Source of the DNA: Halorubellus sp. JP-L1
Lineage (GTDB): Archaea; Halobacteriota; Halobacteria; Halobacteriales; Natrialbaceae
Reading direction: 5' to 3'
DNA: 64,000 bases
Assembly: GCF_011440375.1 (NCBI RefSeq)
Contig: NZ_JAAOIR010000005.1
Coordinates: 62,001-126,000 of the forward strand
In this document: positions 5,827-24,851 of the stretch, piece after piece
Layout: every line of letters starts with the position of its first letter
How positions within the stretch are numbered: position 1 is the stretch's first letter
Position numbers and translations under genes: made by a program
Notes under the pieces: generated by a model
The model's database searches: none
What the model was told of the DNA's origin: nothing
What the model saw: only the letters and a program-made list of their open reading frames with translations

Positions 5827-6144
5827 CTACTCGCCGATGACGAGCGAGTACGCGATGGCGAGCAGGCCCGTGAACTGGAGGGCGCGAACGACGAGGAGGA
5901 CGTAGTTCTGGTGGAGGAGCGAGATGACGTCGAACCGGACGAGCGCGGACCCGACGAGCGCGGTGAGGTACGCGGCGCCGAACAGGAGGATCATGCCGGT
6001 CGAGAGGAACAGCATCTGGCGGCTGCGGTCGCGGAGGACGCCGCGGAGCGCGAGCGCGGCGATGAACAGCCCGACGACCGCTGATCCGGCCGCGAGCACT
6101 AGCGTGAGGAGTTCGACGACCTGATAGGGAACGAGCGGTGCCAT
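5827..6144 (-). CDS. Small three-helix membrane protein paired with a wHTH regulator
   Basis: This 105-residue protein has three hydrophobic segments (about 10-32, 45-68 and 82-102) separated by short charged loops (LRDRSRQM and the LHQNY region). It starts 2 bp after the stop of the wHTH gene, so both are cotranscribed from the right. Pairs of an ArsR-like wHTH and a short membrane protein are frequent in haloarchaea (I recall DUF7521 for the membrane partner). A sensory or signalling role is inference only. Confidence 0.75.
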   Translation of the reverse strand: MAPLVPYQVVELLTLVLAAGSAVVGLFIAALALRGVLRDRSRQMLFLSTGMILLFGAAYLTALVGSALVRFDVISLLHQNYVLLVVRALQFTGLLAIAYSLVIGE

Positions 6145-6146
6145 GG

Positions 6147-6491
6147 TCAGAACTTCCCCCAGAGGCGCTGCAGTTCGTCGGTCGTGTCCCGGTCCATCCG
6201 CGCGACGTCGTGTTCGAGCGCGCCGTCGCGGAGACGGACCTCGAAGCGGTCGAGACTCGCGACGTAGACGGCGTCGTGGTGGCCGTCGCGTCGAGCGCGC
6301 GTCTCCTCGCGCACGAGGTCGGCGGCGTCGAGGTCGTCGACGCGACGCGACACCGTCTGGAGCGACGCGTCGCAGTCCGCGGCGAGCTCGGTCTTCGACT
6401 TCGGTTCCACGCTCGTCGCCACGAGGATGCGCTGGGCGTGCTCGTCGGCGAGGAGGTCGGCGACGGTCGACAGGTCGGCGGGGTCGGTCAT
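6147..6491 (-). CDS. Winged-helix DNA-binding regulator (ArsR-like)
   Basis: The product has 114 residues. Residues 8-70 read as a winged helix: LADEHAQRILVATSVEPKS, then the recognition helix DASLQTVSRRVDDLDAADLV and a wing with THR-like basic residues (TRARRDGHH). The C-terminal region is a short dimerisation strand-helix. Start ATG 6491 (MTDPADLS) is preferred because the longer frame overlaps the end of the neighbouring lipoprotein gene. It is followed 2 bp later by a small membrane protein gene, so it probably controls that operon, possibly in response to a membrane signal. Confidence 0.8.
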   Translation of the reverse strand: MTDPADLSTVADLLADEHAQRILVATSVEPKSKTELAADCDASLQTVSRRVDDLDAADLVREETRARRDGHHDAVYVASLDRFEVRLRDGALEHDVARMDRDTTDELQRLWGKF

Positions 6492-6561
6492 GATGCTGGT
6501 GTCGGTCGGCGGGGTCGGTTCGTACCGGTCGCTCGGTTCGTGCCCGTCGCTGGGTCGTCGG

Positions 6562-7812
6562 TCACGTAGTGCTGGCGTTCTCTGGATCATAGTGGAACAG
6601 GAGCGAGGTGCTGTGCTCGGCGTGGCGGTACGCGAACTCGACGTCGTCGCCGTCGGTCATGTCCGCGGTCGCGAACGCGAGTTCGTCACCGGGTTCGAGC
6701 GTCGACCCCGGCGCTGGCGGGTCCACGAGCGCGTCCGAGGGCTCGAAGTCGACGTGCTCGACGGGGACGGCCTCGCCCGCGTCGTGCCGGACCGTGATCG
6801 CGTCCGGGCGGTCGTCGACGCCCCACGTGACGAAGGGAAGCGAGCGGTAGTCGTCGGCGTCGTCGCCGTTCATGTACACGCTCTCGTCGAGGCGGAGCGC
6901 GACGCGCACGAACGGGTCGTCGACGGTGACGTCCACGCGCGTGGCTCGTCGGCCGCGCGTGATGCCGCTGATCTGGCGCTTGACCTCGCCGGCCGACGGC
7001 GTCTCGCCGTCGGCGAACGCGTGCTCGTGGACGAAGTACGCGGAGGACTCGTCGAACGTGAACCGCAGGCCGCTCTCGATTGCGCCGTCGAGGAGGCCGA
7101 ACGCGTCCAGGACGGTCGGTGCGGCGCCGACGTGCTCGGTGTACGCGGCGAACGTCTCGTCGACCTCGTGGCGCCGGTCGACGCGGCCCGCGCCGGCGTC
7201 CGCGAGCACGCGTGCTTTCTCGCGCCGGTTCTCGCCGCTGGCGTGGACGAGGGCGTCGTCGGAGACGGCGACGAGCCGCTCCAGGTCAGTGCGGTCGTAG
7301 ACGTCGTACCCGCGGAAGTCGTCCGCGCGCTCGTAGGTCGTGGCCGCGAGCGTCCGCTCGACGACCGATCGGTCGACGTCGGCCTCCGCGACGGTCCCGA
7401 TCGGGTCGACGCCGACGAGTCGGTCGTACGCGTCGAGCGGGTAGCCGACGTAGTCCATCGTCGACTGGGCGACGCTCCGCCCGATGTCGAACGGCCGCCC
7501 GAGCTGGGCCGCGCCGAGGTCGCCGGGCGTGACGTACGTCCAGTTCCCGTACGGGTCGTCCTCGTCGTGACCCGGTTCGTCGATCGCCGGGAGTTCGGAC
7601 ACGGCCGGGAACCACCGCCGGTAGCTGGGGGTGGCGTCGCCGCGTCTCGGCACGTCGACGTCGCCGTAGCGGATCGTTCGACTCGCCGGCGGCAGGAGGT
7701 TCGTGCAGCCGGCGCTCGCGCCGGCGGTCGCCGCGGCGAGCGCGGCGCCGCTCCGGCGCAACACCGCGCGCCGGGACCGGCCGCCCCCACCGCCACCCGT
7801 TATCTGTCGCAT
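6562..7812 (-). CDS. Tat-exported lipoprotein of unknown function
   Basis: This 416-residue protein has a twin-arginine signal (RSRRAVLRRSG at residues 12-22), a hydrophobic Ala-rich stretch and a lipobox ending GASAGC with Cys36 as the likely lipidation site. The mature part is acidic and has no transmembrane helix. It contains repeated TYERADDFRGYDVYDR/DLERLVAVSDDALVHA-type segments seen in haloarchaeal surface proteins with no assigned role. Start ATG 7812 places the RR pair properly; a start further upstream at 7836 would add 8 residues. It is predicted to sit outside the membrane, anchored by lipid. Confidence 0.8.
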   Translation of the reverse strand: MRQITGGGGGGRSRRAVLRRSGAALAAATAGASAGCTNLLPPASRTIRYGDVDVPRRGDATPSYRRWFPAVSELPAIDEPGHDEDDPYGNWTYVTPGDLGAAQLGRPFDIGRSVAQSTMDYVGYPLDAYDRLVGVDPIGTVAEADVDRSVVERTLAATTYERADDFRGYDVYDRTDLERLVAVSDDALVHASGENRREKARVLADAGAGRVDRRHEVDETFAAYTEHVGAAPTVLDAFGLLDGAIESGLRFTFDESSAYFVHEHAFADGETPSAGEVKRQISGITRGRRATRVDVTVDDPFVRVALRLDESVYMNGDDADDYRSLPFVTWGVDDRPDAITVRHDAGEAVPVEHVDFEPSDALVDPPAPGSTLEPGDELAFATADMTDGDDVEFAYRHAEHSTSLLFHYDPENASTT

Positions 7813-21233: not shown

Positions 21234-22088
21234 ATGGCAGCGAGTGCGATAGATGCGATCAGGCAGCCCGAGTACACGGGCGAGAATCGGTGCATGGCGT
21301 GCACGGCGGTCAACGGCGTGCTCGCGGTTGCGTTCGCGGGCGCCGTGGGCGCCGGGGCGGCCGCCGCGAGCGCAGAACCGTTCGTCGCCGCCGGAGCAGC
21401 GGGCGCCGTCCTCGCGCTCTCCACGGCGAGCATCTGGCTCCGGGGCTACCTCGTCCCCGGCACGCCCGAACTCACCAAGCGGTACATGCCCGAGTGGCTG
21501 CTCGCGTGGTTCGGGAAAGCGCCCGCAGACGCGAGCGGCCTCGACGGCGCGAGCGACGCCGTCGACCCGAGCGAGGTCGAGGTCGACCCCGAGCGCGTCC
21601 TCCTCGACGCCGGCGCCGTCGAACCCTGCGAGGACGTCGACGACCTCTGCCTGAGCGACGCGTTCGCCGACGCCTGGCAGACCGAGATGGACGCCATCGA
21701 CGACATCCAGGTCGAGGACGCACTCGCCACGTTCGGGTTCGACGACAGCGACTACGAGCTGAGCCGGCGCGACGACGCCGTCCTCCTGAACCGCGGCCCG
21801 CACCGCATCGGCCAGTGGCCGAGCGAAGCCGCACTCGTCGCCGACGTCGCCGGTGCGCGCGCACTCGCCGACCGCTATCCGGACTGGGCGGACATGCAGC
21901 CCGTCGCCAAGGGTCGCGTCCTCAACGGTCTCCGCGTCTTCCTCGAGACGTGCCCGGACGGCTCCGCCGCCGAGTTCCGCGAGGACACCGTCGAATCCTG
22001 CTGCTCGAGCTACGACGTCGTCACCGTCGAATGCGCGGGCAGCGGCGAACGCCTCTTCGAGCAGCGCGTCGACGACCTCCCCGCCTGA
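21234..22088 (+). CDS. Membrane-anchored protein of unknown function
   Basis: This 284-residue protein starts MAASAIDAIRQPEYTGENRCMACTAVNG, followed by two hydrophobic helices (about 24-48 and 52-72), and then an acidic soluble domain facing the cytoplasm or exterior. The soluble part has several cysteines (CEDVDDLC; ESCCSSYDVVTVEC) that could bind metal or form disulfides. ATG 21234 is preceded by an AT-rich CTTTTCATACT at about 30 bp, a plausible TATA region. I recognise only a general haloarchaeal family pattern, not a function. Confidence 0.75.
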   Translation: MAASAIDAIRQPEYTGENRCMACTAVNGVLAVAFAGAVGAGAAAASAEPFVAAGAAGAVLALSTASIWLRGYLVPGTPELTKRYMPEWLLAWFGKAPADASGLDGASDAVDPSEVEVDPERVLLDAGAVEPCEDVDDLCLSDAFADAWQTEMDAIDDIQVEDALATFGFDDSDYELSRRDDAVLLNRGPHRIGQWPSEAALVADVAGARALADRYPDWADMQPVAKGRVLNGLRVFLETCPDGSAAEFREDTVESCCSSYDVVTVECAGSGERLFEQRVDDLPA

Positions 22089-22177: not shown

Positions 22178-23341
22178 ATGCTCGATTACGTCGGACTGGA
22201 GGCGGACCTCGGCGAGGAGGAACGCCTCATCCGGAACACGGCACGTGACTTCGTCGAGGACCAAGTGCAGCCCGACATCGCCGACCACTGGGAGGCGGGG
22301 ACGTTCCCGATGGACGTCATCGGCGAGATGGGCGATCTCGGCTTCTACGCACCGAACCTCGACGGGTACGACCTGCCGAACGTCAGCGAGAAAGCGTACG
22401 GGCTCCTCATGCAGGAACTCGAGGCCTGTGACTCCGGCATCCGGTCGATGGCGAGCGTCCAGGGCGCACTCGTCATGTACCCGATCTTCGCGTTCGGGAG
22501 CGAGGCCCAGAAGGACGCGTGGCTCCCGAAGCTCGGTCACGGCGAGGCCGTCGGCTGCTTCGGCCTCACGGAGCCGAACCACGGCTCGAATCCCTCCGCG
22601 ATGGAGACCCACGCCGAAGCCGACGGCGACGGGTACGTCCTGAACGGCTCGAAGACGTGGATCACGAACTCCCCGATCGCGGACGTCGCGGTCGTCTGGG
22701 CGAAGGACCGCACCGACGACGACACCCCCGTGCGTGGGTTCCTCGTGGAGACCGACAAGGCGGGTGTGACGACGAACAAGATCGAGGACAAGCTCTCGCT
22801 CCGCGCGTCGGTCACGGGCGAGATCGCGCTCGACGACGTGCACGTGGACGCGGACGACGTCCTCCCCGGCGTCCGCGGCATGAAGGGCCCGCTGGCGTGC
22901 CTCACGCAGGCTCGCTACGGGATCGCGTGGGGCGCGGTCGGCGCGGCGATGGACTGCTTCCAGACCGCCCTGGAGTACTCGACGGACCGCGAGCAGTTCG
23001 GACAGCCCATCGGCGGGTTCCAGCTCCAGCAGCGCAAGCTCGCAGAGATGGCGACCCAGATCACGACCGCGCAGTTGCTCGCGCACCGCCTCGCGGACCT
23101 CAAGGAACGCGGCGACCTCCGCCCCCAGCACGTGTCGATGGCGAAGCGCAACAACGTCCGGATGGCTCGCGAGACCGCGAAGACGGCCCGCGAGATGCTC
23201 GGCGGGAACGGCATCACGGGCGACTACTCGCCGATGCGGCACATGGCGAACATCGAGACCGTGTACACGTACGAGGGCACGCACGACATCCACACTCTCA
23301 TCCTCGGCGAGGACCTCACCGGAATCGCGGCGTTCGAGTAG
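22178..23341 (+). CDS. Acyl-CoA dehydrogenase, glutaryl-CoA dehydrogenase-like
   Basis: This is a 387-residue flavoenzyme. The family motifs are CFGLTEPNHGSNP (127-139), WITNSPIADV (161-170), RYGIAWGAVGA (246-256), REQFGQPIGGFQLQQRKLA, and MLGGNGITGDY. The catalytic base is Glu366 in TYEGTHDIHTLILG. The sequence RSMASVQ with Arg89 matches the arginine that binds the glutaryl carboxylate in glutaryl-CoA dehydrogenases, and RYGIAWG and YEGTHDIH are also typical of that group. It would oxidise and decarboxylate glutaryl-CoA to crotonyl-CoA in lysine or aromatic degradation. The substrate is inferred; the family is firm. Confidence 0.93.
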   Translation: MLDYVGLEADLGEEERLIRNTARDFVEDQVQPDIADHWEAGTFPMDVIGEMGDLGFYAPNLDGYDLPNVSEKAYGLLMQELEACDSGIRSMASVQGALVMYPIFAFGSEAQKDAWLPKLGHGEAVGCFGLTEPNHGSNPSAMETHAEADGDGYVLNGSKTWITNSPIADVAVVWAKDRTDDDTPVRGFLVETDKAGVTTNKIEDKLSLRASVTGEIALDDVHVDADDVLPGVRGMKGPLACLTQARYGIAWGAVGAAMDCFQTALEYSTDREQFGQPIGGFQLQQRKLAEMATQITTAQLLAHRLADLKERGDLRPQHVSMAKRNNVRMARETAKTAREMLGGNGITGDYSPMRHMANIETVYTYEGTHDIHTLILGEDLTGIAAFE

Positions 23342-23475
23342 CGTCGCAGGCGCTGCGGGAACGTTTGTATCGTCTCGGCTATCGGGTGTGGTCGTTGGCG
23401 TCGGGTGAACCGTGGTTGCTGGCGGTGTCGACCGGAAGCCGGAAGGACGGAAGCGGGAAGGGCGGCAGGGGGGTG

Positions 23476-23664
23476 CTAGTCGAGGTACTGCTTGGCGAGG
23501 AGGCCGGCGAGCGACAGGACGCCGACGGTCATGAGGCCGTAGTAGACGGCGTCGCCGGCGGTCGGGACGAGGAAGTAGGCGGCGCTCCCGAGGAGGGCCG
23601 CGACGACGACGAGCGCGAGGACTGCACCGTCGATGCTGCCGCCGAAGTCGATTGTCGTTGTCAT
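23476..23664 (-). CDS. Small two-helix membrane protein, candidate partner of the halocin-like gene
   Basis: This 62-residue protein begins MTTTIDFGGSIDG and has two hydrophobic helices (about 13-31 and 38-57) separated by a short loop (VPTAGDAVYY). It starts 25 bp after the stop of the Cys-rich precursor gene and reads in the same direction, so it is probably cotranscribed. Small membrane proteins next to bacteriocin precursors often act in immunity or export; here this is inference from position only. The 134 bp between it and the dehydrogenase gene hold nothing else that I can support. Confidence 0.65.
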   Translation of the reverse strand: MTTTIDFGGSIDGAVLALVVVAALLGSAAYFLVPTAGDAVYYGLMTVGVLSLAGLLAKQYLD

Positions 23665-23689
23665 AACTGTAAGTTGAGACGTCAGTTAC

Positions 23690-24574
23690 TTAGTTGCAAT
23701 GGACGCACCCGGTGCAGGCGTACCCGGTGCCGCCGCACATCGCCATGATGCAGAGTGCACAGCCGGGTCCGACGGCGGAGCAGGACGCCATGCAGGCGCC
23801 ACAGCCGCCGGTCGCCATGAGGCACCGCCAGCACCAGTCCGGGCCGCACTTGCCGTTGTGGTTGGCGATGGAGATGCCGTCGTCGTCGCTGTCTGACGTG
23901 GTCGAGTACGAGAAGGCGTCGACGTCGGATTCGGTGTAGATGCTGCCGCCCGAGACCTCGACGGTGCGGACGTCGTCGTTCTCGTCGATGTACTTGAGGA
24001 CGAACGCGTTCGCGGCGGACGACGCGTAGGCCGAGACCGTCTCGGGGTCGAGGTCGAGGTCGTCGAGCATCGTGCGGAGTTCGCGGTCGGTCGCGACGCG
24101 CGTGAGGACGACGTCGTCGTCGAGTCCGGTGAGGATGGCGGAGCGTTCGTTCGGGAGCGATCGGTGCTCGTCGGGGAGCAGGCCGCGTGCCCGGACGTCG
24201 TCGAAGCGGAACGCTGCCTCGGTGGTGCCGGTCTCGTGAACGCCGTACGCGATGCTCCCCACCTGTGTCGGGACGTACGTGACGTGTATCGTGACGTCCT
24301 GGTTGGACTTCGTGGTGCTGGCGGCACGCTTCGAGAGGACCTTCGGGGAGCCGAGTTCGTCCAGGATGGACTGGACTTTCGAGTCGTCGAGTGCGGCCTC
24401 GACGTCTTCGTCGGTCGCTCGCCCGGGCGGGGTGGCAGTGGCGGTGCCAGCGGCGGCGGTGCCAGCGGCGGCGGTGCCAGCGGCGACGGCGCCACCGGCG
24501 ACGCTCATCTGCTGGAGGAACTTTCGTCGAGTACCGGATACGTCTTCGAACGTGGAAGTTCTGTCGTCCGTCAT
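23690..24574 (-). CDS. Tat-exported precursor with a 12-cysteine C-terminal peptide (halocin C8-like)
   Basis: The product has 294 residues in three parts. Residues 13-48 are a twin-arginine signal (TRRKFLQQMSVAGG) with an Ala/Gly/Thr repeat (GTAAAGTAAAGTATA). Residues 55-235 form an acidic middle domain. Residues 240-294 form a Gly/Cys-rich end with cysteines at 243, 248, 251, 258, 261, 265, 272, 275, 280, 287, 290 and 293. This layout matches halocin C8 precursors, where the N-terminal part gives immunity and the Cys-rich end is cut off as the antimicrobial peptide. Start ATG 24574 is preferred; 24604 is an in-frame alternative. A TATA-like TTTTAAT lies at about 24604-24611. No dedicated protease or transporter gene is adjacent. 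Confidence 0.78.
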   Translation of the reverse strand: MTDDRTSTFEDVSGTRRKFLQQMSVAGGAVAAGTAAAGTAAAGTATATPPGRATDEDVEAALDDSKVQSILDELGSPKVLSKRAASTTKSNQDVTIHVTYVPTQVGSIAYGVHETGTTEAAFRFDDVRARGLLPDEHRSLPNERSAILTGLDDDVVLTRVATDRELRTMLDDLDLDPETVSAYASSAANAFVLKYIDENDDVRTVEVSGGSIYTESDVDAFSYSTTSDSDDDGISIANHNGKCGPDWCWRCLMATGGCGACMASCSAVGPGCALCIMAMCGGTGYACTGCVHCN

Positions 24575-24851
24575 GTTGCGTTCGGTGATGTCCACCGGGA
24601 ACAATTAAAACCAGTGAAAGTAATATAATTTTTATATTTTAGAGTTCGTCCGAAGAGTGTCGAGGTATCCGTCCCGAACTGAGCGTCACAGTTTTAGTAG
24701 ATAATCTGCGCGGTGTGTTCGGGCTCGAAACAAAATCAGTGACCCCGACATCGCTCGTCGTTCCAGTCCAGTCACGGCAGCCGGGGGCGAGCGACCGCTG
24801 TCGGTCGCGACGCCCCGAACGCACTTCGGTCCACGGGCACTCGTTGGAGTG

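Follow-up and report, generated by a model that had tools for sequence, protein, structure and literature searches.

Few halocin genes are known, and most halocins have not been fully sequenced according to the authors of a review (PMC11509114). Halocin H4 and HapP (HFX_0892) of Haloferax mediterranei are secreted as precursors that an extracellular subtilase activates, and for halocin C8 no dedicated protease is known (PMC12893001). The window analysed here, a stretch of 64,000 nucleotides from Halorubellus sp. JP-L1, carries a gene whose product has the same three-part layout as the halocin C8 precursor ProC8, a resemblance that an earlier note on this DNA had correctly recognised. We consider it likely that the protein belongs to a separate, new family of halocin C8-like pre-pro-peptides with a putative antimicrobial activity.

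The open reading frame of 294 residues contained all the parts that had been read from it, namely a Tat signal, an acidic middle domain and a tail of about 55 residues with 12 cysteines (Table 1). The precursor was located within the span originally given (23476-24611), although the upper end of that span takes in upstream sequence. The twin arginine corresponds to residues 16-17, and TIGR01409 scored 16.0 bits on the protein, just under the 16.7 cut-off. The middle domain showed a pI of 4.2 and zero cysteines, and the 55-residue tail a pI of 7.6. The 62-residue two-helix membrane protein described in the earlier note was also present, beginning 25 bp past the precursor stop. The precursor had a third-position GC of 0.88 and the small open reading frame one of 0.94, as expected in this genome, so that both look like real genes, and together they form a coding two-gene unit.

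Table 1. Features of the precursor locus (positions in the window)
Feature	Position	Strand	Remarks
Precursor gene	23690..24574	-	294 aa, ATG start; Tat signal, acidic middle domain and Cys-rich tail
Twin-arginine signal peptide, about residues 1-48	24431..24574	-	RRKFL motif
Acidic middle domain, residues 50-239	23858..24427	-	putative pro-domain, possible immunity part
Cys-rich tail, residues 240-294	23693..23857	-	predicted disulfide-zipped hairpin peptide, about 5.4 kDa
62-aa two-helix membrane protein	23476..23664	-	two hydrophobic segments; candidate immunity protein
AT-rich TATA-like stretch upstream of the precursor	24615..24645	-	read from the sequence; possible promoter
Interval whose flanks sit 283 bp apart in the sister species	23353..24811	.	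sister species: Halorubellus salinus GX3
Two-helix membrane protein with CxxC and CC...C motifs	21234..22088	+	unannotated; relatives near precursors elsewhere

The AlphaFold2 model of the middle domain (residues 51-210) was alpha+beta, with pLDDT values mostly of 85-98, while four helices were predicted in the tail (245-254, 256-268, 272-279 and 284-293) with moderate confidence (pLDDT about 50-80). Comparison of the model with the PDB and with viral structure libraries, in which the middle domain dominated the searches, returned no confident match (best Z 5.4), and PDB sequence searches gave no relevant match.

A protein search of 391 haloarchaeal genomes returned about 24 full-length homologues with 26-32% identity, and a profile search added further members, giving a patchy distribution over 39 of the 391 genomes by our own count of matches extending beyond the signal peptide. 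The succession of Tat signal, middle domain and Cys-rich tail was constant in all the homologues found, and in none did the tail form part of a metal-binding enzyme, the finding that would have spoken against the original proposal. R16 and R17 were invariant in 24 homologues, as were G106, E165 and five cysteines in the core alignment, with five further cysteines nearly invariant. The occurrence of many full-length haloarchaeal homologues sharing one layout and keeping 10 of the 12 tail cysteines places the precursor beyond chance. Pfam and NCBIfam scans of family members gave no convincing match except to Tat-signal models, and scans of genome contigs with the precursor alone or with an alignment (A5) returned nothing. 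The family itself is well supported, and none of the Pfam and NCBIfam models, TIGR04449 and PF22862 included, covers it. In one genome two members stood in tandem; they shared 93% identity in the middle domain and 45% in the tail, where ten cysteines were kept. Haloferax larsenii JCM 13917 (L091, 5867-12983) carried four members, distributed over both strands of a segment of about 7 kb. Other divergent subfamilies combined a Tat signal with an 8-Cys tail (L118, L121 and L128; L114 and L117), the Cys spacing being near palindromic in L118 and less so in L114.

The pairing of the tail cysteines was then deduced from their pattern of loss. Forty-two tails were aligned and 39 were analysed after removal of one frameshifted, one duplicate and one truncated sequence. 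The number of cysteines was even in all 39, and three pairs were gained or lost jointly, 248-290, 258-280 and 265-272 (Fisher 6e-10, 3e-7 and 1e-5, respectively); after clustering at 60% identity (33 clusters) these values became 2e-8, 4e-6 and 2e-4. The lone exception for 248/290 (L122) proved on inspection to be an alignment shift, and no other variable pair showed linkage among the 39 tails. The linked cysteines are nested, with position sums of 537-538, and the spacing is near palindromic across the family (median shuffle p 0.014), the window protein by itself giving a non-significant value (p 0.14). Even counts, loss in fixed pairs and near-palindromic spacing together predict a hairpin closed by six nested disulfides, the topology of which is well supported; pairs 243-293, 251-287 and 261-275 would follow from the nesting. 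The positions of the tail helices in the AlphaFold2 model, of moderate confidence, place the hairpin turn at the centre of this ladder.

TIGR04449 (halocin_C8_dom) was taken as the marker of the halocin C8 family. The search against halocin C8 profiles that had been proposed for the tail was negative with this model, which matched neither the window protein nor 24 family members nor any protein of the genome itself. PF22862 (Hac8_like_N), which matches 15 of 21 halocin C8 relatives, matched none of 24 members at E 0.1. When profiles of the two groups were compared, whole and by domain, only the signal peptides aligned. The tails gave a profile P of 0.06 against 0.03-0.04 for reversed controls, in agreement with the original remark that the tail sequence is not that of halocin C8. 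The middle domains gave 0.025 against 0.15, with no convincing homology. The precursor is therefore built like that of halocin C8, but the profile comparison, being without homology, does not make it a member of that family.

The halocin C8 relatives themselves lose Cys 3 together with Cys 8 (L048) and Cys 4 together with Cys 7 (L043, L044), as nesting predicts, and these few paired losses suggest a nested connectivity in halocin C8 too; a limited literature search found no published disulfide connectivity for this peptide. The model of L042, whose tail we take to match the halocin C8 sequence, showed four tail helices round a central loop, the middle domain beginning with strand, helix, helix and sheet, and a structure search with this model returned weak cystatin-like matches only (best Z 5.7). 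Members of the precursor family and halocin C8-type genes co-occurred in 13 genomes against 4.3 expected (p 6e-5), and in two loci (L083, L090) the two genes were about 10 kb or less apart.

A small membrane open reading frame (up to 130 aa) was detected downstream of 12 of 52 family genes against 9 of 347 controls (p 8e-7), a ratio that is only approximate, given the simple ORF caller behind the control, and about three quarters of the family genes showed none. Among halocin C8-type loci, 11 of 28 had a downstream membrane ORF with at least two helices. The suggestion of a membrane partner was thus borne out as a recurrent pattern of the family, whereas the protein of the window is itself an orphan, and its candidacy as a member of a conserved partner family was dropped on finding a single clear relative away from any precursor. 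This relative, about 47% identical (L033, 1477-1644, minus strand), lies next to a hisH-like gene, with no halocin-like precursor there, and may be an orphan immunity gene.

In the sister species Halorubellus salinus (G239, L168) the flanking genes are 91% and about 80-82% identical and are separated by 283 bp instead of 1460, the precursor and the small membrane ORF being absent from the corresponding site; a divergent family member was found on another contig of that genome. Part of the 283-bp intergenic region is taken up by imperfect repeats of the acyl-CoA dehydrogenase gene's 3' end, and blastn pieces of window positions 23318-23363 match three places in it.

The membrane protein encoded at 21234-22088 belongs to a family of unannotated haloarchaeal membrane proteins, with at least 157 relatives, that combine a QPEYTGENRCxxCT motif, two helices and an ESCC...C motif. 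Relatives were found near family precursors in L082, L083, L091, L110, L117 and a Haloferax larsenii plasmid (L177), and beside halocin C8-type genes in L049, L141 and L136. About 7 of 80 sampled relatives had a halocin-like precursor within 6 kb, where a rough estimate of the chance expectation would be well under one, and copies near precursors clustered in the tree (9 changes against 13.2 expected, 0/500 shuffles). The link of this gene to the precursor of the window is uncertain, since precursors are absent from the surroundings of most copies and the sister species carries the gene while lacking the precursor.

In line with the earlier note, the start sequences of the neighbouring ORFs pointed to no dedicated gene for processing or transport. 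Its further suggestion of an undescribed maturation route did not find support: subtilases with RR-type (Tat-type) N-termini number at least six in the genome, and no dedicated protease is known for halocin C8 either (PMC12893001), so a new route is unnecessary. The motif [VI]x[TA]Q was considered as a cleavage site and rejected, as it is about 13-fold enriched before the first cysteine but confined to 17 of 54 members, the window protein not among them.

A family member (WP_258303480.1, gene KU306_RS16960) was also found on plasmid pHl5678-1 of Haloferax larsenii NCIM 5678 (NZ_CP078064.1; positions 5995-6876 of locus L177), a strain listed as the producer of halocin HA3 (PMC11509114). The predicted peptide of 5-6 kDa does not fit the 13 kDa reported for this halocin, and the same plasmid carries a halocin C8-type gene (record position 149273-149485), so that WP_258303480.1 is a lead to the HA3 gene and not its identification.

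In the model that we propose, the Tat system would export the folded precursor, as its RR signal suggests, with the acidic alpha+beta middle domain folding and masking the tail, and perhaps conferring immunity as HalI does for halocin C8. The tail would consist of two helical arms zipped by 243-293, 248-290, 251-287, 258-280, 261-275 and 265-272. An extracellular protease, possibly one of the cell's own subtilases, would cut the linker near residues 228-242 and free a peptide of about 5-6 kDa, stable, hydrophobic and near neutral, which would inhibit competing haloarchaea, probably at the membrane, while the downstream small membrane protein would protect the producer.

This halocin-like reading is favoured by the layout, the paired loss of cysteines, the downstream membrane ORFs and the empty site in the sister species, and also by the diversified tandem tails, the co-occurrence with halocin C8-type genes, the neighbour family common to both and the member on the NCIM 5678 plasmid. 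The absence of halocin C8 homology, the roughly three quarters of genes lacking a detected small membrane ORF, the misfit with the mass of HA3, the second candidate in NCIM 5678 and the moderate confidence of the tail model count against it. The strongest competitor, which we regard as unlikely, is a secreted peptide, stabilised by disulfides, that serves a purpose other than killing, for instance signalling, mating, adhesion or protease inhibition. The anatomy alone is no proof of killing, and inhibitors of the BLIP-like, Ivy and cystatin-like kinds are among the middle domain's weak structure matches, none of them significant (best Z 5.4). However, presence and absence at a conserved site, diversified tandem tails, recurrent membrane ORFs and neighbours common with halocin C8-type genes resemble bacteriocin loci.

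Tat export, the many CxxC motifs and the four predicted helices might equally recall the Tat-exported, Cys-lined four-helix copper-storage proteins, and the tail would then be an extracellular metal-binding module, a copper or zinc store or sensor. We judge this improbable, because the cysteines are always even in number and are lost in fixed nested pairs, which disulfides fit better than metal clusters do, and no metal-protein family was matched. A lanthipeptide or another thioether-modified peptide appears very improbable. Lanthipeptides do occur in archaea (PMC10105419), and the Cys-rich core is C-terminal as such a peptide would have it, but the precursor is a folded Tat substrate instead of a short leader, the cysteines appear to co-vary with cysteines and not with Ser/Thr, and a partial check of the neighbours, from their start sequences, revealed no evident modification gene.

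If the halocin-like reading is correct, the family supplies candidates in 39 of the 391 sampled haloarchaeal genomes, where few halocin genes have been at hand, and offers a concrete disulfide map that can be checked by mass spectrometry; for the known HA3 strain it adds one candidate among others. More tentatively, halocin C8 and the precursor family might form one large, fast-evolving superfamily of Tat-exported pro-peptides with nested-disulfide hairpin toxins, diverse small membrane immunity proteins and a common, undescribed CxxC membrane partner (QPEYTGENRC...ESCC), a possibility to which we give somewhat less than even weight.

Saposin-like antimicrobials such as NK-lysin have nested C1-C6, C2-C5 and C3-C4 disulfides and a helical bundle folded over on itself. 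The predicted nested pairing in a helical tail resembles this arrangement, a likeness that we treat as a lead only: SapB was not among the matches listed in Pfam scans of either the precursor family or the halocin C8 relatives, and the tail gave no saposin fold match in searches with whole models, dominated by the middle domain. With halocin H4 and HapP of Haloferax mediterranei the family would share a secreted haloarchaeal precursor and, as proposed here, activation by an extracellular subtilase, but HapP frees an N-terminal fragment and not a Cys-rich tail. The closest resemblance is to ProC8. The two differ in Cys spacing, in tail length (55 aa against 76 aa in ProC8) and in the second alpha+beta part of the window precursor's middle domain, and the precursor matches neither TIGR04449 nor PF22862, with no profile similarity clearly above the controls. 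Both, however, carry a Tat signal, an alpha+beta middle domain opening with two helices and a C-terminal Cys-rich helical peptide for which paired losses suggest nested Cys pairing; for neither is a dedicated transporter evident, downstream membrane ORFs recur in the family and follow many of the halocin C8 relatives, and a neighbour family is held in common.
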